A stretch of DNA of 64,000 nucleotides from contig NZ_OZ060924.1 in assembly GCF_964059955.1 (NCBI RefSeq), positions 62,001 through 126,000 of the forward strand, written 5' to 3'. This stretch comes from Sodalis-like secondary symbiont of Drepanosiphum platanoidis. GTDB lineage: Bacteria; Pseudomonadota; Gammaproteobacteria; Enterobacterales; Enterobacteriaceae. The position numbers were made by a program, and so were the translations under genes. The notes under the pieces were generated by a model, which saw only the letters and a program-made list of their open reading frames with translations, was not told where the DNA came from and made no database searches. Numbering within the stretch: position 1 is the first letter of the stretch; every line of letters begins with the position of its first letter. Below, in pieces: positions 5,272 to 44,769 of this stretch.

Positions 5272-5649
5272 ATGCTTATATCTAATCAACTTTTATCTTT
5301 TATATTTTTTTCTTTAGGTACATTTTTTATATCTATAATTATGATATTAATAAGTTATTTTTTAGGTGGAAAATCTGAATCTATATCAAAAAATATTCCA
5401 TTTGAATCTGGAATAAGTTCAGCAGATCATATTTGTTTAAAATTTTCAATTAAATTTTATTTAATAGCTATTTTTTTTGTTATTTTTGATGTTGAATCTC
5501 TTTATTTATATATTTGGACAGTTTCAATAAAAGAAGTAGGTTGGATAGGATTTATACAAATAATAATTTATATATTTATAATGTTAATAAGTTTATTATA
5601 TATAATAAAATCTAATTTAATGAATTGGACAAAAAAAAATATTTTATAA
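5272..5649 (+). CDS. nuoA: NADH-quinone oxidoreductase subunit A
   Basis: Membrane subunit of complex I near the quinone site, first gene of the nuo operon. 125 residues against 147 in E. coli, the difference lying in short hydrophilic termini. Three membrane segments are apparent, with the conserved KNIPFESGI loop and FFVIFDVESLYLY, keeping the acidic pair (D, E) of the third segment region. The Shine-Dalgarno is weak. Confidence 0.93.
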   Translation: MLISNQLLSFIFFSLGTFFISIIMILISYFLGGKSESISKNIPFESGISSADHICLKFSIKFYLIAIFFVIFDVESLYLYIWTVSIKEVGWIGFIQIIIYIFIMLISLLYIIKSNLMNWTKKNIL

Positions 5650-5698
5650 AAAATTTATATAATATTTATTATTAATAATACTTTTAGGTAAAATATTT

Positions 5699-6373
5699 AT
5701 GGATTATACTCTTACTAAAATAGATTTAAATCAAGAAAATAATGAATATCCATTACATAAAAAAAAAAATATTAAAAATGATCCTATAGAACATTATAAA
5801 AAAAATATTTTTTTAATAAAATTAGAAAAAATAATTCATAATATAGTTAATTGGAGTAGAAGTAATTCACTTTGGCCTTATAATTTTGGATTATCTTGTT
5901 GTTATGTTGAAATGATATCTTCATTAACTTCTGTACATGATATATCACGATTTGGATCAGAAGTTATTAGACCTTCTCCTAGACAATCTGATCTTATGGT
6001 TATTGCTGGTACTCCATTTATTAAAATGGTACCAATAATACAACGTTTATATGATCAAATGCTTGAACCAAAATGGGTTATTTCTATGGGTGCATGCGCT
6101 AATTCTGGTGGTATGTATGATGTTTATTCTGTTGTACAAGGAGTAGATAAATTTCTTCCAGTTGATATTTATATTCCTGGTTGTCCCCCAAGACCAGAAG
6201 CATATATAGAAGCTTTACTTTTATTAAAAAAATCTATAAATAAAGAAAGAAGACCTTTATCATGGATTTTAGGTGATCAAGGTATATATCGTCCTAAAAT
6301 GAAATCTCAAAAATCTATAAAAAATAAAATAAGAATGAAAATGAATAATTTACGTTCTCCTGAAAATATTTAA
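5699..6373 (+). CDS. nuoB: NADH-quinone oxidoreductase subunit B
   Basis: Carries cluster N2, which passes electrons to ubiquinone. 224 residues (E. coli 220). The four N2 ligands are present: adjacent C67-C68 in GLSCCYVE, C133 in [10 protein letters not shown] and C162 in [23 protein letters not shown] and ERRPLSW are typical of the family. A short TAGG precedes the ATG. A non-ligand cysteine of E. coli (AGTCFTK) is proline here (AGTPFIK). Confidence 0.97.
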
Positions 6374-6411
6374 TATTAATTTTTAAATAAATTTTATGGT
6401 ATATATAAATT

Positions 6412-8208
6412 ATGAAAGATTTTATTTATAAAAAAAACTCTTCTTTATCTATTAATAAAAAAAAACATATAAAAAATCAAATAATTTATGATATTTATAA
6501 AAAATTTAATAAAAATATTTGTACTATACAGGTAATTTGTTCAGAAACTCTTGTAATATGGGTTAAAAGAAAAAATATTTTAAATATACTTAATTTTTTA
6601 AAAAATATTAATAAACCATATATTATGTTATATGATTTACATGGAATAGATGAAAGATTAAGAACAAAAAATGTTTTTTATCTTACAAGAGATTTTACAA
6701 TTTTTTATCATTTAATATCTATTGAAAGAAATTCTGATATTATAATTAAAGTTTCTCTTAAGATAAATGATTTACATATACCTACAATAACAAATATTTT
6801 TTTAAATTCTAATTGGTATGAAAGAGAAACATGGGAAATGTTTGGAATTATTTTTGATGGACATCCTAATCTTACTCGAATTCTTATGCCTAATTATTGG
6901 AAGGGATATCCATTAAGAAAAGATTATTTATCAAGAGCTACTGAAGTTAATCCATTTAATTTAACAAAAAAAAAAGAAAATAAATTAATGGAATCTCTTG
7001 TTTTTAAACCAAAAGAATGGAATTTAAAAGATAAAAAAAATTCAAATTTTATGTTTTTAAATTTTGGTCCAAATCATCCATCAGCTCATGGTGTTTTTAG
7101 AATTATTCTTCAATTAAGTGGAGAAGAAATTATTAATTGTATACCAGATATTGGATATCATCATAGAGGAGCAGAAAAAATAGCTGAAAGACAAACTTGG
7201 CATAATTATATTCCATATACTGATAGAATTGAATATCTTGGTGGATGTGTAAATGAAATGCCATATATTTTAGCTATTGAAAAAATTGCAGGTATTATTG
7301 TATCTGATAGAGTTAAAGTTATTAGAGTAATGTTATCTGAATTATTTAGAATAAATAGTCATTTATTATATATAAGTACTTATATGCAAGATGTAGGAAG
7401 TATTACTCCTGTATTTTTAGCATTTACAGATCGTCAAAAAATATATGATATAATAGAATCAATTACAGGATTTAGAATGCATCCAGCTTGGTTTAGAATA
7501 GGAGGATTAGCTAATGATTTACCTAATGGATGGAATAAATTTTTAATAAATTTATTAAAATGGCTTCCTAAAAGATTAAAATTATATATGAATTTAGGAC
7601 TAAAAAATAGTATTTTACAAAATAGATCTATAGGAATAGGATCATATAGATACAAAGAAGCTTTAAATTGGGGAATTACTGGAGCTGGTTTACGTGCAAC
7701 TGGAATTGATTTTGATATAAGAAAAAAAAGACCATATTCTGGTTATGAAAATTTTGAATTTGATGTTCCAATTGGAAATGGAATTAGTGATTCTTACAAT
7801 CGTGTTATGATAAAATTTGAAGAAATATATCAAAGTTTAAAAATATTAAATCAATGTTTAAAAAATATGCCTAATGGTCCATTTAAAGCTGATCATCCAT
7901 TAACAACTCCTCCAGATAAAAATCATTCTTTACAACATATTGAAACTCTTATTCATCATTTTTTAAATGTTTCATGGGGTCCAATTCTTCCTGCTAATGA
8001 ATCTTTTCAAATGATTGAAGCTACTAAAGGAATTAACAGTTATTATTTAATAAGTGATGGAGGAACAATGAGTTATAGAACTAGAATTCGTACTCCAAGT
8101 TTTCCTCATCTTCAACAAATTCCATCTGTTATATGTGGAAATTTAATATCAGATTTAATTGTATATCTAGGAAGTATTGATTTTGTAATGTCAGATGTTG
8201 ATAGATAA
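6412..8208 (+). CDS. nuoC: NADH-quinone oxidoreductase fused subunit C/D
   Basis: Hydrophilic connector and quinone-pocket subunit. 598 residues, matching the fused NuoCD of Enterobacterales (about 600). Residues 1-190 are the NuoC (30-kDa) domain, with [12 protein letters not shown] and GYPLRKDY. From about 215 on is the NuoD (49-kDa) domain with [12 protein letters not shown] (quinone-site His), [19 protein letters not shown], and the C-terminal [11 protein letters not shown]. The fusion is a useful taxonomic mark for the enterobacterial lineage. Confidence 0.97.
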
Positions 8209-8243
8209 TAATTATATTTAAAACTAAATTTATTTAAAATAAT

Positions 8244-8732
8244 ATGTTAAAAAAAAATAATGTTTATAATTTAACTAATAAAGAATTAATTAGTATAAAG
8301 AAAGAAATGAAATATTATGAAACTTCAAGATCTATTGTTGTTGAAGCTTTAAAAATTGTTCAAAAAAATAGAGGATGGATTTCTGATGAAATAATTAAAT
8401 CTATTGCAAAAATATTAAATATTTCAAAAACAGATGTAGATAGTATTGCTACTTTTTATAGTCAAATTTTTAGAAAAAAAGTTGGAAAATACATTATAAG
8501 ATATTGTGATAGTGTTGTATGTTATATTAATGGATACATTAATATTGAAAAAAAAATTTCAAAATATTTAAATATTAATCCAGGACAAACTAGTAAAGAT
8601 AAAAAATTTACTTTACTTCCTACTTGTTGTTTAGGTAACTGTGATAAAGGACCATCAATGATGATTAATGAAGTTACTTATATGTATTTAAAACCTGATA
8701 AAATTAAATATATACTAGGAAAATATATATGA
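8244..8732 (+). CDS. nuoE: NADH-quinone oxidoreductase subunit E
   Basis: Thioredoxin-fold 24-kDa subunit of the NADH dehydrogenase module, binding [2Fe-2S] cluster N1a. 162 residues (E. coli 166). The four ligands are C88 and C93 (CDSVVC) and C129 and C133 (TCCLGNC), spaced as in the family. The stop codon overlaps the nuoF start as ATGA (8729-8732), so translation is coupled. Confidence 0.96.
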
Positions 8733-10063
8733 TAAAACGTTTATTACGTTTTCAAGAAACACATCCTCTTACATGGAGAATGCGTAATGATAATAAAACA
8801 GTTTGGATAAAAGAATATATAAAAAAAAATGGATATAAAGGAGCATTTAATGCTATTTCTAAAATGTCTAAAAATTCAATTATAAATTTAGTAAAAGATT
8901 CTAAATTAAAAGGTCGTGGAGGAGCTGGATTTTTTACTGGAATAAAATGGGAATTAATTTCAAAAAATACAAAAAATAATAAATCATATTTAATCTGTAA
9001 TGCTGATGAAATGGAACCTGGTACATATAAAGATCGTTTTTTAATGGAAAGATTACCACATTTACTTATTGAAGGTATTTTAATAGCATCATTTGCTATT
9101 AATTCTACTCGTTCATATATATTTATAAGAGGAGAATATATAAATGCTATAAAATATATTTTTCGTGCTATTAATGAAGCAAAAAATTTTAATTTTTTAG
9201 GAAAAAATATTTTTAATAGTGGATTTAATTTAGAAATTGTTATACATAGTGGAGCAGGACGATATATATGTGGTGAAGAAACTGCTCTTATTAATTCTTT
9301 AGAAGGAAAAAGAGCAAATCCTAGATCTAAACCTCCATTTCCAGCTAGTGTTGGATTATGGGGAAAACCTACTTGTGTAAATAATGTAGAAACTTTATGT
9401 AATTTACCTGCATTATTAGAACATGGTTTAAAATTTTATAAAAATTTAAATAAAAAAAAAAGCAAAGATACAGGAACAAAATTAATGGGATTTTCTGGAA
9501 AAGTAAAATATCCTGGAATATGGGAATTTCCATTTGGTATAACTTCTAGAGAAATTTTTGAAGATTATGCAGGAGGAATGATAAATGGTCTTTCTCTAAA
9601 AGCATGGCAACCTGGAGGAGCTAGTACTGCTTTTTTAACTAAAAATCATTTAGATGTAATAATGGATTTTGAATCAATTTCTAAAGTAGGTAGTAGACTT
9701 GGAACAGCTATTTCAATGGCTATTGATTCTAATACTAGTATTATTTCAGTTGTATTAAATATTGAAAAATTTTTTTCTAGAGAATCATGTGGATTTTGTA
9801 CACCATGTCGTGAGGGATTACCATGGATAGTAAAAATATTATATGATTTAGAAAAAAAAGAAGGATATAAAGAAGATATAAAAACTTTAAAAGATTTATG
9901 TTTTTCATTAAGTCCAGGAAAAACTTTTTGTGCACATGCACCAGGAGCATCAGAACCTTTAAAAAGTTCTATGAATTATTTCATCGATGAATTTAAAAAT
10001 GGAATTAAAAAAAGTAAAATTTTTAACATTGATAAAATTATTGGAATACAAAAAAATATATAA
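8729..10063 (+). CDS. nuoF: NADH-quinone oxidoreductase subunit F
   Basis: NADH-oxidising 51-kDa subunit with FMN and [4Fe-4S] cluster N3. 444 residues (E. coli 445). The FMN/NADH loop [10 protein letters not shown] is at 62-71, the second nucleotide motif includes [16 protein letters not shown], and the N3 ligands are C354, C357, C360 ([11 protein letters not shown]) and C401 (TFCAHAPG). It starts inside the nuoE stop codon. A 105-base A/T gap follows before nuoG. Confidence 0.97.
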
Positions 10064-10168
10064 AAATTAATTTATATATTAAAATTTTTAATAAAATTTT
10101 TTAATTATTTTTTTATATTTTATTTTATTTTATTATTTTTAACTTTCAACAAATAAGCAAATTAAATT

Positions 10169-12895
10169 ATGATTACTATTTTTATAGATGGAAATAAATA
10201 TAAAATTAAAAAAGAAAAAAATATATTAGAAGCTTGTTTATCTGTTGGATTAGATATACCTTATTTTTGTTGGCACCCTATATTAGGGAGTATTGGATCT
10301 TGTAGACAATGTGCAGTTAAACAATATATAAATTCTAAAGATACAAATGGAAAATTAGTAATGTCATGTATGACACAAGTTATGAATAAAAGTATTATTT
10401 CTATTAATGATTCTGAAGCAAAAACTTTTAGAAAAAATATCATAGAATATTTAATGATTAATCATCCTCATGATTGTCCTATATGTGAAGAGGCTGGTCA
10501 ATGTCATTTACAAGATATGACAATAATGAATGAACATTATAAACGTAGATATCGTTTTAAAAAAAGAACTCATAATAATCAAAATTTAGGTCCATTTGTT
10601 TCTCATAATATGAATAGATGTATAACATGTTATAGATGTGTACGTTTTTATAAAGAATATGCTGGAGGAAGTGATTTAAACGTTTATGGTTTTCATGATA
10701 ATATATACTTTGGAAGATTAAATGATGGAAATTTAGAAAATGAATTTTCAGGAAATTTAATAGAAATATGTCCAACTGGTGTTTTTGGTGATAAAATTAA
10801 CTCTAAAAATTATAATAGAAAATGGGATATGCAATTTTCTCCAAGTATTTGTCATCAATGTAGTGTTGGTTGTAATATTTCTCTTGGAGGTCGTCAAGGA
10901 GTTTTAAAAAAAATTGAAAATCGTTATAATGGTACTATAAATCATTATTTTTTATGTGACAGAGGAAGATTTGGATATGAATATGTTAATATAAAAAATA
11001 AATTTATTTATTCAAAAAAAAATAAAAAAAATGTTTTAATTGAAATTAAAAAAAATGAAGCTATAAAAAAAGCAAGAAATATTTTAAAATTTTCTAAAAG
11101 AACAATTGGTATAGGTTCACCAAGAGCAAGTATAGAAAGTAACTTTTCTTTATTAGAATTGGTTGGATATAAAAATTTTTTTTCTGGAATTATAGAAAAT
11201 GAACATCAACAAACAAATCTTATTTTAAATATATTAAAAAAAGGAGGAATTCATACTCCTTCATTAAGAGAAATAGAAAGCTATGATACAATATTAATAT
11301 TAGGAGAAGATATAACACAAACCAGTCCAAGAATATCATTAGCTGTACGTCAAGCAATGAAAAATAAATTAATAAAAGAATCAAAAAAAAATAATATTCC
11401 TATATGGGATTCTAATTCTATTGAAAATTTAAAAAAAGATAATAAAAATTTTTTATTTATTACTAATACATATAAAACAAAATTAGATGATATTTCTAGT
11501 TGGAATTATTATTCTTCAATAGAAGATCAAATAAAATTTGGATTTTCTATAGCTAATCATATAAATAATTCATCTCCTTATATAAAAAATACAAAAAATT
11601 ATTTAATAAATAAAATAAATTATATATCTAATATTTTATTAAAATCAAAAAAACCTCTTATTATTTCTGGAATGAATTCAGGTAATATTTCAATAATTAA
11701 ATCAGCATATAATATTGCAAGATCTTTAAAAATTAATGGTAATAATGTAGGAATAGTTCTTTTAGTAAATTATGTTAATAGTTTAGGATTAGCTTTACTT
11801 AAAGGAAAGAGTTTAGATAAAGCTGTTTTTTTATCAAAAAATAAAAAAATAGATAGTTTAGTAATACTAGAAAATGATTTATATTATCATCAAACAAAAT
11901 CATATATTAATAATTTTTTATCTAAAATTAAAAATATTATTATATTAGATCATTTAAAAACAAAAACTTATAAAAAGGGAACATTAAATTTTTCTGTTGC
12001 TAATTTTGCTGAAAGTTCAGGAACAGTAATTAATTATGAAGGAAGAGCTCAAAGATTTTTTAAATGTTTAGATTATTATCCATATAATAAAAAAATAAAA
12101 ATTTTAGAATCATGGAAATTATTAAATTTAATAAATATTAATTTTTTAAAAAAAAATAATTTTTATAAAAATCTTGATGAAATTATAAATAAAATATCAT
12201 CTAATATTAAAAATTTAAAAAAATTAAAAAATGTATCATTAAGTTCAAATATTCTTTTTAATGGACAAAAGTTATCAAGATCTCCTAATCGTTATAGTGG
12301 AATTAGTTCAATGTATTCTACATATAATATAAATGAACCTAAAACATCTCAAGATAAAGATACAATATTTTCTTTTTCTCCAGATATTAATAATTCTCCT
12401 GAAATAATTAGAAAAGAAATACCATTTGCATGGTATCCAGGATGGAATTCAAATCAATCTTGGAATAAATTTCAAAAAGAAATAGGAGGACATTTAAAAC
12501 ATGGAGATCCTGGACTTATTCTTTTTAAAAATAAAAATATTAAATTAAATTGGTTTAATAAAACACCTATTAAATTTTTTTATAAAAAAAATCAATATAA
12601 TATAATTTCTTTTTGGTCTTTATTTGGAAATGATGAAACTTCAAGATATTCTTCAACAATACAAAAAGTTATGATTAAGTCTTATGTTTATATAAATAAA
12701 AATGATTTTTCTTGGATGAAATTAAAAAAAAATTCTTTATTATCATTTTATTGTTTAGGAGAAAAAATATATCTTCCTATAAAATTTAATAAAAAAATTA
12801 ATATAGGTCATATAGGATTATCTATTGGATTTCCTAATATTCCTAAAGTTTTTTTAGGATCAATTGCTAAAAATTTTTTGGAAATTAATATATGA
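10169..12895 (+). CDS. nuoG: NADH-quinone oxidoreductase subunit G
   Basis: Large iron-sulfur subunit that wires FMN to the peripheral arm. 908 residues, the same as recalled for E. coli. N1b ligands are C34, C45, C48 and C67; N5 is H101, C103, C106 and C112; N4 starts with C151, C154, C157 and ends in EICPTGVF. The extra N7 cluster found in E. coli-type NuoG is kept (CHQCSVGC plus FLCDRGRFG). The molybdopterin-like domain is full length. The start matches the family N-terminus (MITIFIDGN) although no clear ribosome site precedes it. The gene ends in an ATGA overlap with nuoH. Confidence 0.97.
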
Positions 12896-13866
12896 TTTTT
12901 ATAAAAAAAGAAATATTAAATACTAGTTTAAATATATCTAAATCATTATTTTTTTTAGGAGGTATAATTTTTTTTAGTGCATATATGAGTTTCATTGAAA
13001 GAAGAATAATTGGTTTTTTTCAAAATAGATATGGTCCAAATAAAGTTGGTTGGGAAGGATCTTTACAATTATTTGCAGATATGTTAAAAATGTTTTTTAA
13101 AGAAGATTGGATTCCTGAATTTTCTCATAAATTTTTTTTTATTATTTCTCCTATTATTTCTTTTATTTCATTTTTATTAGTATTTTCTATTATTCCATTA
13201 AATAATTATATAACAATTATAGATACTAATATTGGTATTTTATTTTTTTTAATGATGATTGGACTATCTATATATGGAATTATTTTTTCTGGTTGGTCTA
13301 GTAATAATAAATATTCTATTATTGGATCTATTAGAGCTACTGCACAAACATTAAGTTATGAAGTTTTTCTTGGTCTTTCATTAATGGGAGTAGTAGCACG
13401 TGCTGGATCTTTTAATATTAAAGATATTATTATTTCACAAAAAAATTTATGGAATATAATTCCTCAATTTTTAGGATTTATTACTTTTTTAATATCAGGA
13501 ATGGCTGCATGTCATAGACATCCATTTAATCAACCAGAAGCTGAACAAGAAATTGCTGATGGATATAGAATAGAATATTCTAGTATAAAATTTGGTTTAT
13601 TTTTTATAGGAGAATATATAGGAATGACTCTTATTTCTGCTTTTTTAGTAATATTATTTTTTGGTGGAGGATATGGACCATATTTTTCAGGATTTTTTTG
13701 GTTTTTTATAAAAACTTTATTTTTTAATATATTTTTTATGATAGTTCGAGCAGCAATTCCATATCCTAGATATGATCAAACAATGATGTTTAGTTGGAAA
13801 GTATGTTTACCAATAACATTATTAAATCTTATTGGAACTGCATTTTTTATTTTATATAAAAGTTAA
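12892..13866 (+). CDS. nuoH: NADH-quinone oxidoreductase subunit H
   Basis: Membrane subunit forming the quinone channel and the first part of the proton path. 324 residues (E. coli 325), eight or so membrane segments. Conserved loops are intact: [21 protein letters not shown], the GWSSNNKYS loop, the acidic [21 protein letters not shown] stretch (kept short here as [10 protein letters not shown]) and [11 protein letters not shown]. Its ATG overlaps the nuoG stop codon. Confidence 0.97.
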
Positions 13867-13885
13867 AATTATATGGATAAATTTT

Positions 13886-14428
13886 ATGATTTTTAAAAAA
13901 ATAATTATAGGATCTATAACAATTTTAAGAAGTATATGGTTAATTATTATTCAATCTTTTAATAAAAGAGAAACAATATTATATCCAGATGTTTCATTAA
14001 ATTTATCATCTAGATATAGAGGAAGAATTATATTAACAAAAAATAAAAATGGAGATGAAAAATGTGTAGCATGTAATCTTTGTTCTGTTGTATGTCCAGT
14101 AGGATGTATTTCTTTACAAAAATCAGAAAAAAAAAATGGTAGATGGTATCCAAAATTTTTTAATATAAATTTTTCTAGATGTATTTTTTGTGGTTTATGT
14201 GAAGAAGCATGTCCAACTACTGCAATACAACTTATTCCAGATTTTGAAATGAGTGAATTTAAAAGAAAAGATTTATTATATAAAAAAAAAAATTTATTAA
14301 TTTCAGGTCCTGGTAAATATCCTGATTATGATTTTTATAAAAAAAGTGGAATAAATTTTTCTAAAAAAAATAAAAAATTATCTAAAAATAAATTTTCTCC
14401 AATTAGTGTTAAAAATTTACTTCCTTAA
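13886..14428 (+). CDS. nuoI: NADH-quinone oxidoreductase subunit I
   Basis: Ferredoxin-like TYKY subunit with two [4Fe-4S] clusters, N6a and N6b. The ATG at 13886 is chosen over an in-frame ATG at 13832 inside nuoH because it follows GGAT and gives 180 residues, the E. coli length. Ligands are C60, C63, C66, C70 and C99, C102, C105, C109 in two CxxCxxCxxxCP motifs. It lies 19 bases after nuoH. Confidence 0.96.
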
Positions 14429-14439
14429 GGTAATTTATT

Positions 14440-14958
14440 ATGTCAATAATATTTTATATTTTTGGTATTATATCTATAATATCTACTTGTATAGTAATTT
14501 TTCATAAACATCCAGTTTATTCTCTTTTTTATTTAATATTATCATTAATATCTGTTTCTTGTATGTTTTTTTCTATAGGATCTTATATTGCAGGATCATT
14601 AGAAATTATTATTTATGCAGGTGCAATAATGATTTTATTTATTTTTATTGTAATGCTTTTAGATTCTGGAAAAAAAATAAATAAAAATAAATATTTTATT
14701 TTTTTAAAAAATAAATATTTATTTTATTTTTTTATTTTAATAATTTTTAATATATTTTTTTATTTTTTAATAAATGAATCATTAAAAAATAAAATTATTT
14801 ATTTTAATAATATTGAAGCAAAAAATATTGGAATTTCTTTATTTGGACCATATTCAATTTTAGTAGAATTATCTTCTATGTTATTATTATCTAGTTTAAT
14901 ATCAGCATTATATATGGGAAGAAATTTCAAACATTATTTAAATAGTTTAAAAAATTAA
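14440..14958 (+). CDS. nuoJ: NADH-quinone oxidoreductase subunit J
   Basis: Membrane subunit with the flexible third helix that couples quinone chemistry to proton movement. 172 residues (E. coli 184). Five hydrophobic segments are visible; the conserved helix stretch EIIIYAGAIMILFIFIVML is intact. The C-terminal region is Lys/Asn-rich in its loop and a little shorter. AAGG lies before the start. Confidence 0.95.
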   Translation: MSIIFYIFGIISIISTCIVIFHKHPVYSLFYLILSLISVSCMFFSIGSYIAGSLEIIIYAGAIMILFIFIVMLLDSGKKINKNKYFIFLKNKYLFYFFILIIFNIFFYFLINESLKNKIIYFNNIEAKNIGISLFGPYSILVELSSMLLLSSLISALYMGRNFKHYLNSLKN

Positions 14959-14973
14959 AAGAGTAATTTAATA

Positions 14974-15276
14974 ATGATTTTATTATCAAATAGTTTAATA
15001 TTAATGTTTATATTATTTTCATTAGGAAATATAGGGGTTTTAATTAGAAAAAATATAATTTTTATATTATTTAGTTTAGAAATTATAATAAATTCTTCAG
15101 CTGCAGCATTTATAATGGTAGGAAGTTATTGGAAACAAGTTGAAGGACATATAATGTATATTATTATAATTACTACTTCTGCTGCTGAAGCAGGAATTAT
15201 TTTATCATTAATATTACAAATTAGTTTAATAAATAAAAAATTAAATATTAATGAAATTAGTGAGATAAAAAAATGA
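14974..15276 (+). CDS. nuoK: NADH-quinone oxidoreductase subunit K
   Basis: Small three-helix proton-channel subunit. 100 residues, as in E. coli. Both key membrane glutamates are present: E36 in FSLEIIIN and E72 in SAAEAGI. It ends in an ATGA overlap with nuoL (15273-15276). Confidence 0.97.
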   Translation: MILLSNSLILMFILFSLGNIGVLIRKNIIFILFSLEIIINSSAAAFIMVGSYWKQVEGHIMYIIIITTSAAEAGIILSLILQISLINKKLNINEISEIKK

Positions 15277-17117
15277 ATTTATTATATTTAACAATATTAT
15301 TTCCTTTTTTAGGATTTTTATTGTTAACTTTTTTTTGTAATAAATCTTCTAAAAAATTTATATCTATAATAGGTGTTGGAAGTATTTTTTTATCTTTTAT
15401 TATATCTTTTTTAGTAACTTTAGATTTTATAAAAAATTCAAAAAAAAATATATATATATATAATCAAAAATTATTTAATTGGATAGATATTAATAATTTT
15501 AATATTTCATTAAATCTTTATTTAGATGATCTTTCTATTACGATATTATTAATAGTTATTATTATAGGATTATTAGTTCATATTTATTCAATAAATTATA
15601 TAAAAATAACAGAAGATTATAGACGTTTTTTTTCATATATGAATTTATTTATTTCTAGTATGATATTATTAATTTTATCAGATAATTTTCTTGTAATGTA
15701 TATTGGATGGGAAGGAGTTGGTATTTGTAGTTATCTTTTTATTGGATTTGATTATACAAAATATAAAAATATAATTTTTTCTATGAAATCTTTTATTATT
15801 ACTAGAATTGGAGATTTATGTTTAATTTTTTCTATGATTATTTTATATAATAAGTTTAATACATTAAATTTTACAACTCTTTTTTTAGAAAAAAATCAAG
15901 AAATTTTTAAAAATTCTACATCTATTTATATAGCTATGTTTTCAATATTAATTGGTACTATAGGAAAATCTGCACAAATTCCATTGAATACTTGGTTATC
16001 TGATGCAATGTCTGCTCCAACTCCATCTTCTGCATTACTTCATTCTTCTACTATGGTTATATCTGGTATATATTTAATATCTAGAATAAACAAATTATTT
16101 TTATATTTTCCTAATTTATTATATATAATATCTATTATAGGATCAATAACAATAATTATGACTAGTATTTTTGCTTTATCAGAGAAAAATATTAAAAAAA
16201 TATTAGCATATTCAACCATGAGTCAATTAGGTTATATTTTCTTATCACTAGGTATAGAAGAATGGTATTTAGCTATTTTACATCTAATAATTCATGCATT
16301 TATAAAGTCTTTATTATTTTTATCTTCTGATTATTTAATTAATTTTTATAATAAAGAACAAAATATTTATAAAATTGGAATATTTAAAAATTCTAATTAT
16401 CTATTATATTTTTTATTTTTATTTGGAGCTTTTTATCTTTCATCTTTTCCATTTATTACTCCTAGTTTTTATTCTAAAGATTTAATTTTATTACAAACAT
16501 TAGAAAAAAATCATTTATTTTTATTTATAATTGCAATAATAGGATCTTTTTTTACTGTATTATATATATTTCGTATGATATTAATAATTTTTTATAAAAA
16601 AGAAAAAATTAATCCTTTTTATATAAAAAAAAAATATATATTTAAAATTTTTTCTTTATTTTTATTAATTTTTTTATCAATTTTTATTGGTCCATGGACA
16701 ATTCTTCCAATAAACAAATTTTTTATAAAAAATTTGTTTTACAAAAAAAAATTATTTTATATTGAATTAATATCTAGTATATTAATTATATTAGGAATAA
16801 TAATATCTTATTACATTTGGGGTAGTTCAAAAAAAATATTGATTTTTATAAAAAAAAATAAATTATATAAATTTTTATTTTATTATATTTTTAATCCAAA
16901 AAATATTGATTTTATATATAAAAAAATATTTGTTTATCCTTTTTTATTAATTTCAAAATATTTAAAAATTGATCCTATAAATTATTTTATAAATAAAAAT
17001 ATATTAAAAATTTATTCAATAATTAATAAATCAAATAATATTTTAAAAAAAAATATTAGTACATCCTATATATCAATATTTTTAGGATTATTAATAATAA
17101 TATTTTTATTAATATAA
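15273..17117 (+). CDS. nuoL: NADH-quinone oxidoreductase subunit L
   Basis: Distal antiporter-like proton pump subunit with the long lateral helix. 614 residues (E. coli 613). Proton-path residues are kept: the TM5 Glu in GWEGVGICSYL, the Asp in RIGDLCL, the TM7 Lys in GKSAQIPLNTW, the His in ALLHSSTMV, the Lys in KKILAYSTMSQ, and the TM12 Lys-Asp in SKDLIL. It overlaps nuoK by four bases. The C-terminal 150 residues (lateral helix and last membrane segment) are Lys/Asn/Ile-rich and more diverged. Confidence 0.97.
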   Translation: MNLLYLTILFPFLGFLLLTFFCNKSSKKFISIIGVGSIFLSFIISFLVTLDFIKNSKKNIYIYNQKLFNWIDINNFNISLNLYLDDLSITILLIVIIIGLLVHIYSINYIKITEDYRRFFSYMNLFISSMILLILSDNFLVMYIGWEGVGICSYLFIGFDYTKYKNIIFSMKSFIITRIGDLCLIFSMIILYNKFNTLNFTTLFLEKNQEIFKNSTSIYIAMFSILIGTIGKSAQIPLNTWLSDAMSAPTPSSALLHSSTMVISGIYLISRINKLFLYFPNLLYIISIIGSITIIMTSIFALSEKNIKKILAYSTMSQLGYIFLSLGIEEWYLAILHLIIHAFIKSLLFLSSDYLINFYNKEQNIYKIGIFKNSNYLLYFLFLFGAFYLSSFPFITPSFYSKDLILLQTLEKNHLFLFIIAIIGSFFTVLYIFRMILIIFYKKEKINPFYIKKKYIFKIFSLFLLIFLSIFIGPWTILPINKFFIKNLFYKKKLFYIELISSILIILGIIISYYIWGSSKKILIFIKKNKLYKFLFYYIFNPKNIDFIYKKIFVYPFLLISKYLKIDPINYFINKNILKIYSIINKSNNILKKNISTSYISIFLGLLIIIFLLI

Positions 17118-17164
17118 ATATATTGATATATTTTATTTAATTTTTAACTTTTTTAATAAAAATT

Positions 17165-17199
17165 AAATTTATTTAATATTTATTAAATTAAATAAATTT
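17165..17199 (+). other. Hairpin in the nuoL-nuoM gap
   Basis: Perfect 13-bp A/T inverted repeat (17165-17177 and 17187-17199, loop 9 nt) inside the 106-base nuoL-nuoM spacer. No T run follows, so it is more like an intercistronic processing or stability structure than a terminator. An arm of this length is not far above chance at this composition. Confidence 0.35.
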
Positions 17200-17223
17200 T
17201 ATATTTTTCAAAGGATTAATTAA

Positions 17224-18735
17224 ATGTTATTGCCTTTATTAATATTCATTCCTTTTATTGGAGGATTAATATGTTGGAAATCTACTTATATTAATAATAG
17301 TTTACCATGTTGGATTGCATTAATAAGCATGATAATATCATTATATTTAATAATATTAGAGTGGATTTTTTTACAAAAAAATAATTTTATTTTTCAAAAA
17401 AATAATTTTTTTCAATGGAAAGATGAATTTTTTGTTAAATGGATTCCAAGTTTTGGAATAAATTTTCATTTTGCAATAGATGAATTATCATTAATAATGA
17501 TATCTTTAACTATAATTTTAGGAATAATATCTATATTATGTTCTTGGAATAAAATAAAAAAATTTAATGGATTTTTTTATTTTAATTTATTATTTGTATT
17601 AAGTGGAATTATAGGAATTTTTTTATCAATTGATTTATTTTTATTTTTCTTTTTTTGGGAAATTATATTAATTCCTATATCTTTTTTAATTATTTTATAT
17701 GGTAATAAAAAAAATACAATAAAATATAATATTTTTTCTATAAAAAAATTTTTTATTTATAGTCAATTTGGAAGTTTATTAATGTTAATATCTATTTTAT
17801 CCTTAGTTATAATACATTATTATTCTACTAAAGTATTAACATTTGATTATGAATTATTATTAAAAACTAAAATGTCAAATTTACATGAATATTTAATAAT
17901 GATAGGATTTTTTTTACCATTTGCAATAAAAATTCCATTAATTCCATTTCATGGATGGTTACCAAGTTTACATAAAAGCTCTTCTACAAATGGATCAATA
18001 GATATATCTTCTTTAATAATAAAGACATCATATTATGGATTAATAAGATTTATTATTCCTATATTTCCTCATGCATCATATAAATTTTCTTTTATAGCTA
18101 TAATAATAGGAATTTTTAATATAATTTATGGATCTTTTGTTTCTTTTTCACAAAATAATATAAAAAAAATGATTTCATATCTTAGTATATCTCATATGGG
18201 ATTTTTATTAATTTCTATATATTCTTTTAATCATTTGGTTTATCAAGGTATTATTATACAAATAATTTGTCATACTTTATCTATATGTGCTTTATTTATT
18301 ATAAGTAGTCAACTATATAAAATAGTTAAAACTAATAATATAAATAAAATGGGAGGTTTATTAAAAGATTTAAAATATATACAAACTTTTTCTTTTTTCT
18401 TTATTTTATGTATGATTGGAGTTCCAGGGACTGGTAATTTTATTGGAGAAATTACTATGTTAATTGGACTATATAATATATATCCAATAATAACTATATT
18501 AGTTATTTGTGGAATATTTTTTTATTCAATAAATTTATTAAATATGATATTTCGTATATATTATGGGCCTATAAAATTAAATAATTTTATTAAAAAAACT
18601 AATATATATGAATATTTAATATTAATTTTTATATCTTTTATTATTATTTTTATTGGATTTTTTCCAAAATTAATTATTGATATTACTTCAATACTTATGA
18701 AAAAAACTTGTAATATTGTTTTACATAAATTTTAA
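17224..18735 (+). CDS. nuoM: NADH-quinone oxidoreductase subunit M
   Basis: Middle antiporter-like proton pump subunit. 503 residues (E. coli 509), about 14 membrane segments. Kept residues: TM5 Glu E146 (FFFFWEIIL), TM7 Lys K236 (FAIKIPLIP), TM8 Lys K267 (LIIKTSYYG) and the TM12 Glu in GNFIGEITML. Odd: the family motif WLPDAH is WLPSLH here, so the usual Asp is Ser248, and the following SQAPTAGS is KSSSTNGS. A strong AAAGGA precedes the ATG. Confidence 0.97.
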   Translation: MLLPLLIFIPFIGGLICWKSTYINNSLPCWIALISMIISLYLIILEWIFLQKNNFIFQKNNFFQWKDEFFVKWIPSFGINFHFAIDELSLIMISLTIILGIISILCSWNKIKKFNGFFYFNLLFVLSGIIGIFLSIDLFLFFFFWEIILIPISFLIILYGNKKNTIKYNIFSIKKFFIYSQFGSLLMLISILSLVIIHYYSTKVLTFDYELLLKTKMSNLHEYLIMIGFFLPFAIKIPLIPFHGWLPSLHKSSSTNGSIDISSLIIKTSYYGLIRFIIPIFPHASYKFSFIAIIIGIFNIIYGSFVSFSQNNIKKMISYLSISHMGFLLISIYSFNHLVYQGIIIQIICHTLSICALFIISSQLYKIVKTNNINKMGGLLKDLKYIQTFSFFFILCMIGVPGTGNFIGEITMLIGLYNIYPIITILVICGIFFYSINLLNMIFRIYYGPIKLNNFIKKTNIYEYLILIFISFIIIFIGFFPKLIIDITSILMKKTCNIVLHKF

Positions 18736-18774
18736 TTTAATTTTATACATTAAATCATAAGGTTATAACTTCTG

Positions 18775-20226
18775 ATGATAAAAAATTTTCAACAACTAAT
18801 TATACTATTTCCGTTGTTGATTCTTGGATTAACAATAGTTATTTTAATTCTTACAACATCTTTTAATTTTAAAAAAAAAATATATTCTTATATAATTACT
18901 ATTATTTCATTAAATATATCAATATTATCTTTATTTTTTATAAAAAAAAATAATATTTTTTATCATAATTTTTTAATTATAATGGATAATTATTCTATTT
19001 TTTATATATTTTTAATATTAATTTCTAGTTTAATTACATCTATAATTTCATTTCTTTATTTAAAAAAATATACATCATATTATGATGAATTTTATATATT
19101 ATTATTAATATCTACTATAGGAGCTATTTTTCTTTCTATTTCTAATAATTTTATTTCTTTTTTTATAGGATTAAAAATTATTTCTATTCCTATTTTTGGA
19201 ATGATGAATTATATTTTTAAAAAAAAAAATTCATTAAATACAAGTATTAAATATATTATTTTATCTACTATATCATCTTCTTTAATTTTATTTGGAATAG
19301 CATTAATTTATTCTAAAACTGGTAATTTATCTTTTGAAGAAATTAAAAATATTTTATTTATATACGATATAAATCATAATAAAATATTTTTAATGGGAAT
19401 AGGAATGATAATATCTGGTATTAGTTTTTATTTATCATTAGTACCTTTTCATTATTGGACAATTGATGTTTATAAAAATTCTCCTACATCTTTAATAATT
19501 TTTATATCTACTGTTAGTAAAATAGCAATATTTTCTGTTGCAACAAGAATATTTTATTTAATTAATAATACTTCAATAAAAATTATATTTTCTTTATTTG
19601 CAATTTTATCTATTATTTTAGGAAATTTATTAGCTTATAAACAAAAAAATATTAAAAAAATGTTAGGATATTCTTCCATATCTCATATGGGATATATTAT
19701 AATAAATTTTATTACAATAAATAATGATCTTATTTCTATTGAATCTATTAATTTATGTATTTTTAGTTATATTATATCTAATTTAATATTATTTAGTATA
19801 ATTACTATTATATCTAATTATTATAATATTAAAAATAAAAATAAAATGTCTTTTTATAAAGGATTGTTTTGGAAACAACCAATATTAGCAATTTCTTTTA
19901 GTATAGCATTATTTTCATTATCTAGTTTTCCATTAACTATTGGATTTATAAGTAAATTTTACATATTATTTTTATGTATTAAAAATAAATTATGGTATAT
20001 TATTTTTTCTATATTTTTAGGACATATTATTGGAATTTCATATTATTTACGTATTATAATTAATATTTATTATCCTATTAATAATAATTTATTAAAAAAA
20101 ATTAATAAAAATAAATATTGTAAATTTAATGAAATATTAATTTTTATAATTTCTTTATTTATATTAATTTTTGGTTTATATCCTCAACCTTTAATAAATA
20201 TATCAAAATATTCAATATTTTATTAA
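18775..20226 (+). CDS. nuoN: NADH-quinone oxidoreductase subunit N
   Basis: Proximal antiporter-like proton pump subunit; last gene of the operon. 483 residues (E. coli 485), with recognisable family sequence throughout (DEFYILLL, SIKYIILS, GYSSISHMGY, LTIGFISKFY). Start chosen at ATG 18775, with AAGG upstream. Odd: two residues central to proton transfer in E. coli differ. The TM5 Glu133 position is Lys134 (IGLKIIS) and the TM7 Lys217 position is Tyr219 (SFYLSLVPFH). The TM8 Lys (K249) and TM12 Lys (K394) are kept. The frame is intact, so the subunit is probably made as a structural part, perhaps without a working channel. Confidence 0.95.
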   Translation: MIKNFQQLIILFPLLILGLTIVILILTTSFNFKKKIYSYIITIISLNISILSLFFIKKNNIFYHNFLIIMDNYSIFYIFLILISSLITSIISFLYLKKYTSYYDEFYILLLISTIGAIFLSISNNFISFFIGLKIISIPIFGMMNYIFKKKNSLNTSIKYIILSTISSSLILFGIALIYSKTGNLSFEEIKNILFIYDINHNKIFLMGIGMIISGISFYLSLVPFHYWTIDVYKNSPTSLIIFISTVSKIAIFSVATRIFYLINNTSIKIIFSLFAILSIILGNLLAYKQKNIKKMLGYSSISHMGYIIINFITINNDLISIESINLCIFSYIISNLILFSIITIISNYYNIKNKNKMSFYKGLFWKQPILAISFSIALFSLSSFPLTIGFISKFYILFLCIKNKLWYIIFSIFLGHIIGISYYLRIIINIYYPINNNLLKKINKNKYCKFNEILIFIISLFILIFGLYPQPLINISKYSIFY

Positions 20227-40066: not shown

Positions 40067-40951
40067 TTATGATATGTAATCTAATGATATTAATATACTA
40101 AAAAAAGTAATAACTATTATTGAATAAATAAATAATTTTTTTGCCCAATATTTAATATTTTTATTATTTTTATATTCTTTTACAGCAATATATAACCAAT
40201 ATAAACTTATAAAAAATTCTATTATTAAATATTTATATCCAGTAAAACCTAAAAAAGTTAACATAGAAAAAAATATAATAAAATTTATAATATAAAAAAT
40301 TATATGATTTCTTGAAATAAAAATTCCATATTTTTCTGGAAAAGTAGGGATTTTAGCAAGTTTATAATCATTTGATCTAAAAATTGCAATTGAATAAAAA
40401 TGAGGTATTTGCCATATAATAAAAATTATTATTAAAATTTTTGATAAATTATCAAATTTATTACTTACAGAACAATATCCTATTATTGGTGGAGTTGCAC
40501 CAGATAAACTACCTAAAAATATTGAATAAATATATTTTCTTTTTGTATATAAACTATATAAAAATACATATATTAAAAAACCTAATATTGATATAAATAA
40601 AGAAATATTATTTACTTTAAAATATAAAATAAAAAAACCTATTATAAATAATATTATAGAAAATATAAAATATTTTTTAATTAAATATTTTTTTTTTACT
40701 AAAATTCTATTTTTTGTTCTTTTCATTAAAAAATCAATATCATGATCTATAATATTATTTATTATACATGCTGATGAAATTATACATATTACTCCAATTA
40801 ATGTATAAAAAAATAATATTAAATTAATATTTCCTTTAGAAGCTAATAAAAATCCTCCTATTAAAGATATTACATTTCCAATAATAATATTTGGTTTAAT
40901 AATTTGTATATGTTTAATATAATTAAAAATTATATTTTTATTTAATTTCAT
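40067..40951 (-). CDS. cyoE: Protoheme IX farnesyltransferase (heme O synthase)
   Basis: Makes heme O, the high-spin heme of cytochrome bo3. 294 residues from the ATG at 40951 (E. coli 296); an in-frame ATG at 40969 would add six residues and neither has a clear ribosome site. UbiA-family Asp motif NNIIDHDIDFLMKRTKNR is present, with GGFLLASKG and SGATPPIIGY. About eight or nine membrane segments. It overlaps the end of cyoD, so translation is likely coupled. Last gene of cyoABCDE. Confidence 0.93.
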   Translation of the reverse strand: MKLNKNIIFNYIKHIQIIKPNIIIGNVISLIGGFLLASKGNINLILFFYTLIGVICIISSACIINNIIDHDIDFLMKRTKNRILVKKKYLIKKYFIFSIILFIIGFFILYFKVNNISLFISILGFLIYVFLYSLYTKRKYIYSIFLGSLSGATPPIIGYCSVSNKFDNLSKILIIIFIIWQIPHFYSIAIFRSNDYKLAKIPTFPEKYGIFISRNHIIFYIINFIIFFSMLTFLGFTGYKYLIIEFFISLYWLYIAVKEYKNNKNIKYWAKKLFIYSIIVITFFSILISLDYIS

Positions 40952-41252
40952 AATTAATAAGGTTATCATGTAAATGATACATAATCCATACAGATCCTGT
41001 AATTAAAATAATAAAAATTAATATTGAAAAAATAAAAAAAATTAAATTTAAAATTTTATTTTTTTTATAAGTTAATTTAAAAAAAAATATTGAATGCATT
41101 ATAATATATAAAGATAAACAAAGTAATATAATAAATATCATTTCATTTTTTGTAAAAATTTTACTTTTATTAAAAAAAAATGGAATTAATATTAAAATAC
41201 TAGATAAAATAATATGTAAAATATTTATTTTTTTTTTTATTAAAAATGACAT
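40938..41252 (-). CDS. cyoD: Cytochrome bo3 ubiquinol oxidase subunit IV
   Basis: Small three-helix assembly subunit. Start set at ATG 41252, which shares one base with the cyoC stop (TAATG) and follows GGAG; this gives 104 residues (E. coli 109), whereas a longer in-frame reading into cyoC is not supported. The conserved end GSVWIMYHLHDN resembles E. coli GSIWIMWNLNYN. Confidence 0.92.
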   Translation of the reverse strand: MSFLIKKKINILHIILSSILILIPFFFNKSKIFTKNEMIFIILLCLSLYIIMHSIFFFKLTYKKNKILNLIFFIFSILIFIILITGSVWIMYHLHDNLINYEIK

Positions 41253-41869
41253 TAAGTAACTCCTATCATATATACTATGGAATATATACACATCCATATT
41301 ATATCTAAAAAATGCCAAAATAAACTTAAACATTTTAATTTAGTTTTATTAGTTTTAGTTAAACCATAATATAAAATTTTTATAAAAACTAAAATTATCC
41401 ATATTATACCAATAATTAAATGAATTCCATGAGTAATTAATAATACAAAAAGACTAGATAAAAATGCACTTTTACTTGGAATAAATCCTTTAATAATTAG
41501 TGAATATAATTCATTTGTTTCAATAAAAATAAAAAAACATCCAAGAATTAATGTAATTAATAACCATATTTGAACTTTTTTATTTTTATTTTCTTTAGAA
41601 TAAGACATTGATATATCATAACTTATACTACTAAAATATAAAATAAATGTTTCAATTACAACTTTATTACAATTAAATATTTTTATTTCAGAAGGACCAT
41701 TATAAATTCCATTTCTTAATACAGAATATGTAGCTAACAAAGCAGCAAATATAATAAAATCGCTCATTAAATATATCCAAAATCCAAATATTTTAATAGA
41801 ACTTTCTGATGTATTTTTGCTTATAAAAGAATTATTACAATTTTTTTTATTAATATTTTTATTTAACAT
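41252..41869 (-). CDS. cyoC: Cytochrome bo3 ubiquinol oxidase subunit III
   Basis: Membrane subunit III, five helices. 205 residues (E. coli 204). IFGFWIYLMSD, VETFILYFSS, THGIHLIIG and CLSLFWHFLDIIWM are clear family matches. The N-terminus is Asn/Lys-rich instead of the His-rich E. coli leader. Confidence 0.95.
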   Translation of the reverse strand: MLNKNINKKNCNNSFISKNTSESSIKIFGFWIYLMSDFIIFAALLATYSVLRNGIYNGPSEIKIFNCNKVVIETFILYFSSISYDISMSYSKENKNKKVQIWLLITLILGCFFIFIETNELYSLIIKGFIPSKSAFLSSLFVLLITHGIHLIIGIIWIILVFIKILYYGLTKTNKTKLKCLSLFWHFLDIIWMCIYSIVYMIGVT

Positions 41870-41881
41870 AATTTTATTAAA

Positions 41882-43852
41882 TCAATTTTTTAAAAATAAT
41901 TTATTTTCAATTTTTTTTATTTTTTTTATAGATATAACATTATGAGAATCTTCATAAAAACTATATATAATAAAAATTAATGTTGTTATTATAAAACTTA
42001 TAATTGATAACCACCAAATGTTCCATACCATAGAAAATCCAAAAATTAATATAAAAAAAGAAAATATTATACCCATATTAGTATTTTTAGGCATAAGAAT
42101 AGATTTATAAGAATATTTTATTTTTTTAAAATTTTTATAATTTTTTTTAATTTCCCAAAAAGCATCTTTTTTATTAATTATTTTAGGAATAACTGAAAAA
42201 TTATAAAATGGAGGTGGTGATGAAGTAGACCATTCTAAAGTTCTTCCATTCCATGGATCTCCTGTAATATCAAGATTATTTTTTTTATCTCTAAAACTAA
42301 CAAATATTTGTATAATTTGACATATAATTCCAATAAATATTATTACTGTACCAATTGCTGCTATAGTTAATGGTTTATGAAATAAAAAATCAATATTTTG
42401 ACTTAATCTACGTGTCATTCCCATTAATCCTAAGATATATAAAGGCATAAAAGCTATATAAAAACCTATTATCCAAAACCAAAAAGCACGTTTACCCCAT
42501 TTATCATTTAAAATAAATCCACTAACTTTAGGAAACCAATAATTTATACCAGCAAAACATCCAAATACTACTCCACCAATAATTACATTATGAAAATGAG
42601 CTACTAAAAATACACTATTATGAAGCATAAAATCTATTCCAGGTATTGCTAATAATACACCAGCCATTCCACCAATAGAAAATGTTATTATAAATCCAAT
42701 AGTCCATAACATACATGAATTTAAAATTATACGACCTCTATAAATTGTAAATATCCAATTAAAAATTTTTACTCCAGTAGGAATAGCAATTATCATTGTC
42801 ATTATACCAAAAAAAGCATTAACATTAGCTCCAGATCCCATTGTAAAAAAATGATGCAACCAAACACAAAAAGATAAAATAGTTATAGATAATGTAGCCC
42901 ATACTAAAGATTTATAACCAAAAAGAGGTTTTTTAGAAAAAGTAGATACAACTTCTGAAAATATACCAAATACTGGAAGTACTAATATATATACTTCTGG
43001 ATGTCCCCAAGCCCAAAAAAGATTTATATAAAGCATCATATTCCCACCCATATCATTAGTGAAAAAATGAGCACCTATATAACGATCAAGTGTTAATAAT
43101 GTAATAGTTACAGTTAATATAGGAAAAGCTGTAATTATTAATATACTTGTACAAAGAATTGTCCAAGTAAAAACTGGCATAGACATCATTGACATATTAG
43201 GTATACGCATTTTTAAAATTGTAGTTAAAAAATTTATTCCTGTTAATGTTGTTCCAATACTAGCAATTTGAATGCTCCAAATCCAATAATCAACACCAAC
43301 ACCTGGACTATATTCTTTTCCAGATAATGGAGGATATGCTACCCAACCAGTTTCTGCAAATTCTCCAACAAATAAAGAAATATTTATTAAAATTGCTCCA
43401 GCAACAAATAACCAAAAACTTAAAGAATTTAAAAATGGAAATGCAACATCTCTAGCTCCAATTTGTAATGGTATAATTAAATTCATTATAGCTAAAATAA
43501 GAGGTGTAGCCATAAAAATAATCATCATAACACCATGAACTGTAACAATTTGATCATAATGATGAGATGATAAAAATCCATTTGTATGATTAGAAGCTAA
43601 AAATTGTTGAGCTCTCATCATTAATGCATCTATAAAACCTCTAAATAACATTATAAATGCTACTATTATATACATAATTCCTATTTTTTTATGATCAACT
43701 GAAGTAAACCATTCATTCCAAAGATATTTCCATTTTTTAATATAAGTAATATATCCTATTAATAAACTCATAATAATAAAAATTATAAAAAAAGTAATCA
43801 TGATAATAGGTTCATGATATGGAATAGAATTAAATGTTAATTTTCCAAACAT
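41882..43852 (-). CDS. cyoB: Cytochrome bo3 ubiquinol oxidase subunit I
   Basis: Catalytic subunit: reduces O2 to water at the heme o3-CuB site and pumps protons. 656 residues (E. coli 663), about 15 membrane segments. Heme/copper ligands are in [16 protein letters not shown] (His-Tyr pair), WLHHFF and VAHFHNV. The ubiquinol-site residues R71, D75, H98 and Q101 are kept ([15 protein letters not shown]), as is the D-channel Asp in GARDVAFP. It therefore looks fully functional. Confidence 0.97.
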
Positions 43853-43917
43853 TATTTTTCCTTTATAATTTATATAAATTTAATATATATAATATTTTAA
43901 TAAAATATTTTTAAATT

Positions 43918-44769
43918 TTAATGAAATTTTTTTATAACAATTTGAAATAAATTATCTTTTACTAAAGAAAAATATTTTATAGAAGTATTTTCATTCGGAA
44001 GAGAAATTTGTTCATAATCAAATATATTTTTTATATAATTAGAAGATAATTTTACTTTTTTAATCCATTTATTAAATATATCTGTATTTTTAGTTACTAT
44101 AACTTTAAATTTCATATTAGAAAATCCTTTTCCACTAAAATTAGAAGACATTCCTTTATATATTCCTTTAGTATTAGACATTAAATTTAATACTGAATTC
44201 ATACCAGCCATAGTATATATTTGTCCTCCTAATCCTGGAATAAAAAAAGAATTCATTACTGAATTAGAAGTTAATTCAAATTTAATTGGAGTATTTTTAG
44301 GAAACACTAATTCATTTATTGTTGCAATTTTTTGTTTTGGATAAATAAAAAGCCATCTCCAATCAAGAGATATTACTTGAATACGTATATATTTTTTATA
44401 AGGTTCAATAGGTTTATTAGGATCTAAATCATGAGTAGATTTCCATGTTAAGTTTGCTAAAAATAAAATCATAAAAAAAGGTATTATCCAAATAATTAAT
44501 TCTATTTTTTTTGAATCAGACCAATTTGGATCATATAATGAAGAATTTTTAGATTCTCTATATTTAAATACAAATATTAAAGTCATTAAAATTACAGGAA
44601 CTACAATTGTTAACATTAATAACATTACTGTAATCATTAATGTTTTTTCTTTTATAGCTATTATTCCTTTTGGATTCATTATAATTAAATTATTACATCC
44701 AAATAAAAATATTGTTATAGATAATATAAATATTTTTTTTAAAAAGTTTTTATATTTTTTAAATCTCAC
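43918..44769 (-). CDS. cyoA: Cytochrome bo3 ubiquinol oxidase subunit II
   Basis: Lipoprotein subunit II with two membrane helices and a periplasmic cupredoxin domain lacking the CuA site. 283 residues; E. coli has 315, and the missing part is its His/Met-rich C-terminal tail. Signal peptide with lipobox LFGC, modified Cys at 25. The start is GTG at 44769 (MRFKKYKN, like E. coli MRLRKYNK), with AGGA upstream. SLDWRWLFIYP and SNSVMNSFFIPGLGGQIY are typical. First gene of cyoABCDE; its promoter lies in the spacer to the right. Confidence 0.95.
   Translation of the reverse strand: MRFKKYKNFLKKIFILSITIFLFGCNNLIIMNPKGIIAIKEKTLMITVMLLMLTIVVPVILMTLIFVFKYRESKNSSLYDPNWSDSKKIELIIWIIPFFMILFLANLTWKSTHDLDPNKPIEPYKKYIRIQVISLDWRWLFIYPKQKIATINELVFPKNTPIKFELTSNSVMNSFFIPGLGGQIYTMAGMNSVLNLMSNTKGIYKGMSSNFSGKGFSNMKFKVIVTKNTDIFNKWIKKVKLSSNYIKNIFDYEQISLPNENTSIKYFSLVKDNLFQIVIKKFH

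Follow-up and report, generated by a model that had tools for sequence, protein, structure and literature searches.

The NuoN subunit of respiratory complex I in a Sodalis-like secondary symbiont of Drepanosiphum platanoidis lacks both residues of the glutamate-lysine ion pair that is otherwise nearly universal in this protein. That a NuoN has shed both gate residues in nature is the new finding, and it comes from a lineage that has no ATP synthase. The affected gene closes the nuoA-N operon in the stretch of 64,000 nucleotides analyzed here (the window; see the table). A sequence-only reading of the window had noted that the codon at the site of the TM5 glutamate is AAA, that the codon at the site of the TM7 lysine is TAT, and that the reading frame is nevertheless intact. 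All three observations hold. The alignment to Escherichia coli NuoN (PDB 3rko, chain N) is gap-free around both sites, with 'lflgiElislp' in E. coli facing 'ffiglKiisip' in the window at TM5, and 'glgfKlslvpf' facing 'gisfYlslvpf' at TM7. The E. coli residues at both positions, E133 and K217, were verified on NC_000913. Equally, the lysines of TM8 and TM12 that the same reading had listed as retained are in place.

Features of the window that bear on complex I and its terminal oxidase (positions of the window; residue numbers of altered sites follow E. coli unless the window residue is named)
Feature	Position	Strand	Observation
nuoA-N operon	5272..20226		complete
remaining nuo genes (nuoA-J)	5272..14958	+	NuoA D79/E81 and FeS cysteines retained
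nuoH	12892..13866	+	E157/E216/E220/E228/E241 retained; D213N, H226R, R291Y
NuoH D213N codon	13528..13530		near-invariant column altered
NuoH H226R codon	13567..13569		change common to two other genomes
nuoK	14974..15276	+	E36 and E72 retained
nuoL	15273..17117	+	axis residues E144/D178/K229/K342/K399 retained
nuoM	17224..18735	+	axis residues E144/K234/K265/E407 retained
nuoN	18775..20226	+	uninterrupted ORF of 483 codons (483 aa); last gene of nuoA-N
Lys134 codon AAA	19174..19176	+	position of E. coli E133; TM5 Glu lost
Tyr219 codon TAT	19429..19431	+	position of E. coli K217; TM7 Lys lost
Lys249 codon AAA	19519..19521	+	corresponds to E. coli K247 (TM8); retained
Lys394 codon AAA	19954..19956	+	corresponds to E. 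coli K395 (TM12); retained
cyoABCE, cytochrome bo oxidase	40067..44769	-	sole terminal oxidase found

Judged from its sequence, the protein is NuoN by descent and by position, without the pair that nearly all its homologs carry. Homology extends over the whole length (residues 6-478 align with 3rko chain N at an E value of 1e-110, against a far weaker 1e-17 for NuoM chains), the gene stands after nuoM, and the TM8 and TM12 lysines are present. Aside from the ion pair, the only departure from what is expected of a NuoN protein lies in its NCBIfam scores. NuoN models are the top-scoring ones, but the score of 434 bits (434.3) with NF004439 is under the curated cut-off of 531, and the 327.4 bits obtained with TIGR01770 fall below its cut-off of 332.6. 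We attribute these low scores to the divergence that goes with a GC content of 17%; in this genome, NuoM and NuoL likewise score under their equivalog cut-offs.

A shift in register, with a displaced glutamate or lysine serving as a substitute, was considered and excluded. There is no aspartate or glutamate within residues 106-165 of the window protein, and no lysine or arginine within residues 205-232. Moreover, no new acidic residue able to partner the new lysine has been gained in this NuoN.

The NuoN comparison drew on members of the window's own GTDB family, about 70 with small genomes and about 26 with larger ones, and was extended by 65 gammaproteobacteria from across the class and by 30 sequences from across the phylum. 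At the positions of E133, K217, K247 and K395, the pattern E-K-K-K is found in 191 of the 193 aligned Pseudomonadota proteins, whereas K-Y-K-K is found in the window sequence alone. Glutamate occupies the E133 column in 192 of 192 other proteins and lysine the K217 column in 191 of 192, so that none of these proteins, symbiont or free-living, carries the lysine-tyrosine pair. The proposal that such an alignment might reveal a shifted glutamate and lysine, or the same substitutions in free-living species, thus finds no support in this sample. The remaining sequence of the 193 has E-E-K-K; it comes from a 2.2-Mb gammaproteobacterial genome (G442, locus L195), in which a natural K217E accompanies a retained E133 in a protein that scores above the NCBIfam cut-off. 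One truncated NuoN (genome G135), in which the glutamate and the lysine are present and the later positions are missing, was kept outside the 193.

The window's genus is represented by a single genome in the sampled data. No relative above 47% identity was found in samples spanning 154 genera of the family, the nearest Nuo sequences being about 48% identical, and a contig search for close relatives returned one remote match, in Clostridia. The nearest relatives on the Nuo tree (G244, G156 and G006) have ATP synthase and an E-K-K-K NuoN.

The pair loss is not part of a general decay of the protein. When a column is called near-invariant if it is at least 98% conserved among the other rows of the 98-row family NuoN alignment, there are 17 such columns, and the window sequence deviates at exactly two of them, namely the E133/K217 pair. 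The chance that two random breaks among 17 columns would fall on this pair is 1/136. Its identity to E. coli NuoN is 37%, the 29th lowest of 97 and in line with the values for NuoM, NuoL and NuoH. General decay of NuoN is therefore ruled out by the 15 of 17 near-invariant columns retained and by the ordinary identity rank, and as far as sequence conservation can tell, the loss is a targeted change within a conserved protein.

Judged by sequence, the other subunits of complex I appear functional. All fourteen subunits are represented (by 13 genes, nuoCD being fused), the FeS-ligating cysteines are retained in NuoB, NuoE, NuoF, NuoG and NuoI, and the axis residues are retained in NuoL, NuoM, NuoK and NuoJ, which bears out the earlier statement that NuoL and NuoM keep theirs. 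The E-channel acids are present except for changes in NuoH, where D213N and H226R are found; D213N and R291Y alter near-invariant NuoH columns, and D213N looks like a further change to the enzyme beyond NuoN. Two other genomes that carry NuoH H226R, G165 (L073) and G021 (L074), combine it with NuoL D178S and have ATP synthase.

The genome as a whole comprises 472,091 bases, divided between a 459,102-base chromosome with 17% GC and a 12,989-base plasmid, and its strong reduction agrees with the earlier description of a shrinking genome. No atp gene was detected anywhere in it: atpB is absent from the whole genome, and searches with AtpA and AtpD yield Rho as the sole match. The chromosome contig begins with a mioC-like gene, mnmG and gmhA (the first and third named by inspection). 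At C1:826-3402 (genome G000, locus L110), mnmG is followed directly by the gmhA-like gene and the usual site of the ATP synthase operon is empty; in many sister genomes, atpB lies about 2.2-3.1 kb into the equivalent contig. The chromosome contig looks to have been rotated to the mioC/mnmG point. No open frame runs across its joined ends, and we infer that it is circular. The plasmid (L162:1-12989) carries thiC, thiE, thiF, thiG, thiH, thiD, panB, panC and a repA-like gene, with ORFs assigned by inspection. Its thiamine genes resemble plasmid genes of the aphid symbiont Candidatus Erwinia haradaeae, and the gene set fits a vitamin-provisioning insect symbiont.

Searches of the genome for ndh (NDH-2), cyd (cytochrome bd), sdh and gltA (citrate synthase) were negative, such that complex I together with cytochrome bo forms the sole route found from NADH to oxygen. 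The tested glycolytic enzymes, the pyruvate dehydrogenase genes aceEF-lpd, and ackA-pta are retained. Because there is no ATP synthase, ATP must derive from substrate-level phosphorylation or from the host. This absence, which lay outside the view of the sequence-only reading, shifts the role required of complex I.

Published mutants of E. coli NuoN indicate how much the two lost residues matter. The E133A mutant has wild-type activity (PMC13073174), and PMC3046159 agrees on this point. The K217A mutant retains 46-56% of NADH oxidase activity, and its pumping reaches 68% when measured in membrane vesicles and 109% with proteoliposomes; in K247A and K395A, by contrast, hardly any activity is left (PMC13073174). 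The window has thus lost the two NuoN residues that E. coli best spares and has kept the two that E. coli cannot. Neither E133K nor the E133K/K217Y double change is among the mutants reported in the E. coli NuoN literature examined. In recent wave models of the enzyme (PMC13324432, PMC9271201), proton transfer through the membrane arm starts when the K217-E133 ion pair opens, this pair being the first gate beyond the E-channel. The sequence-only reading had treated both residues as central to proton transfer in NuoL, NuoM and NuoN; for NuoN this is less secure, since E. coli NuoN, unlike NuoL and NuoM, tolerates E133A with wild-type activity and retains about half of the NADH oxidase activity and much of the pumping with K217A (PMC13073174). 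Its view that complex I may run with one altered pump channel is right in that both residues are replaced within an intact frame; the altered channel itself is a possible reading, softened by the mutant data.

The explanation to which we give about an even chance is that the NuoN ion-pair switch has been dismantled as a tolerated change in a complex I that now mainly recycles NADH. The enzyme would chiefly turn NADH back to NAD+, and ATP would come from glycolysis and Pta-AckA or be taken from the host. Without ATP synthase, the demand on pumping would be lower, and the switch, the most dispensable element of NuoN in E. coli, could be lost; a double loss would be tolerated because little would depend on the pumping rate. 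The two changes are probably linked, with the second relieving an electrostatic clash that the first would have introduced: Lys133 beside Lys217 would bring like charges together, and tyrosine at 217 would leave only one. The outcome would be a slower complex I that still oxidizes NADH. Pumping would continue in the E-channel, NuoM and NuoL, and NuoN, though lacking a gate of its own, would pass charge along K247-K395. By analogy with E. coli, where single losses leave an assembled and partly or fully active enzyme, the double loss would be tolerable. Speaking against such tolerance is earlier work that, as cited in PMC3046159, found K217 mutants to be non-functional.

Among 72 small genomes with complex I that were compared at these residues, ATP synthase is not intact in 14, a group that contains the window's genome; on the Nuo tree, presence or absence of ATP synthase has to change state about nine times. 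Only two of the 72 deviate in core-axis residues, namely the window (NuoN) and G049 (NuoM E407K), and both are without ATP synthase; the probability that both would fall in that class is 0.036, a post hoc value from two cases. The other twelve genomes without intact ATP synthase retain every core-axis residue, and when more functional residues are included, changes are not associated with ATP synthase loss (Fisher p = 1). It is plausible that this loss is a permissive condition for loss of the NuoN pair. It is not sufficient, because E-K-K-K persists in no fewer than 12 other small genomes whose ATP synthase is not intact. In genome G128 (C1:634307-639771), atpB and atpD are in pieces with internal stops while NuoN is intact (nuo region L038), and ATP synthase there is seemingly decaying while complex I persists.

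The foremost alternative, although an unlikely one, is that one pump module has been disabled so that fewer protons are moved per NADH, as an adaptation to high proton-motive force. Lacking ATP synthase, a cell would build up proton-motive force that stalls complex I, and a lower gearing would keep NADH oxidation going. This accords with a genome that lacks both ATP synthase and the non-pumping NDH-2, and with G049, the sole other core-axis deviant, whose NuoM E407K lowers the yield in E. coli to 1.5 instead of 2 H+/e- (PMC9271201). It also has a counterpart in the Sodalis symbionts of lice, which pair loss of ATP synthase with weaker pumps, Ndh for Nuo and cyd for cyo (PMC11137140). However, K217A in E. 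coli slows electron transfer more than pumping, such that a drop in H+/e- is not obvious (PMC13073174), the twelve other genomes lacking ATP synthase show no such change, and the case rests on two examples found after looking. We hold equally unlikely its broader form, in which the membrane arm has been re-geared or rewired, with the NuoN gate absent, charge still reaching NuoM and NuoL, and the proton yield of each NADH lowered in adaptation to the missing ATP synthase.

Next in rank, and improbable in our estimation, is a rewired switch. Here the positive charge would have moved from TM7 to TM5, where it would pair with E72 or E36 of NuoK, and NuoN would still gate and pump; as part of this joint reading, and no more probable than it, Tyr219 would help proton transfer. 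Both NuoK glutamates are retained, NuoN is otherwise well conserved, and NuoK E72 has been placed near NuoN E133 and suggested to be able to fill in for it (PMC13073174). A compensated pair should nevertheless be marked by a gained acidic residue in NuoN or a matching change in NuoK, and neither is seen.

We also doubt that complex I, or NuoN alone, is in an early stage of decay in which drift has fixed slightly harmful mutations. The small, AT-rich genome, the prior loss of ATP synthase and the unusual NuoH changes D213N, H226R and R291Y would suit such a course. Yet the 483-codon frame is uninterrupted, the near-invariant columns and identity are kept as described above, the other inspected nuo genes are intact and no alternative NADH dehydrogenase was found in the genome; furthermore, random decay would not single out both partners of a pair. 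Lastly, a sequencing or assembly error is very improbable, for although E133K is one G-to-A change seen in the one genome of its genus, K217Y takes two base changes in one codon and so cannot be due to a single miscalled base, and independent errors at both partner codons of a clean gene would be very unlikely.

A natural enzyme that lacks both gate residues while keeping the essential ones offers a test of whether the K217-E133 gate is needed, and the double change could be copied into E. coli by two codon edits. The case also points to a testable link between changes in pump residues and ATP synthase loss, an event that recurs among small genomes retaining complex I.

Several known systems resemble this one in part. 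The E. coli mutants E133A, K217A and K217R (PMC13073174) affect the same subunit and positions while K247 and K395 are kept, but these are single changes made in the laboratory, mostly to alanine, whereas in the window both changes occurred naturally and together, as E133K and K217Y. For loss of a single member of the pair, mitochondrial ND2 provides an example from nature: according to PMC3046159, which cites a sequence survey, a few metazoan proteins are without the equivalent of the E133 glutamate. Many of these also lack three N-terminal helices, and none is described, in the account cited there, as lacking the TM7 lysine; the window NuoN, by contrast, is a bacterial protein of 14-helix length that has lost both members. 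The NuoN of G442 shares natural replacement of the TM7 lysine, but keeps E133 and has glutamate rather than tyrosine at K217. NuoM E407K, a charge-symmetry change made in E. coli and natural in the small genome of G049 (locus L101), is likewise a core-axis change in an antiporter-like subunit, in G049 also accompanied by the absence of ATP synthase, although it concerns a distal NuoM glutamate and not the NuoN ion pair. Finally, the Sodalis symbionts of lice share the loss of ATP synthase together with a shift toward weaker proton pumping, but they exchange whole modules, whereas the symbiont studied here keeps the module and changes its residues.
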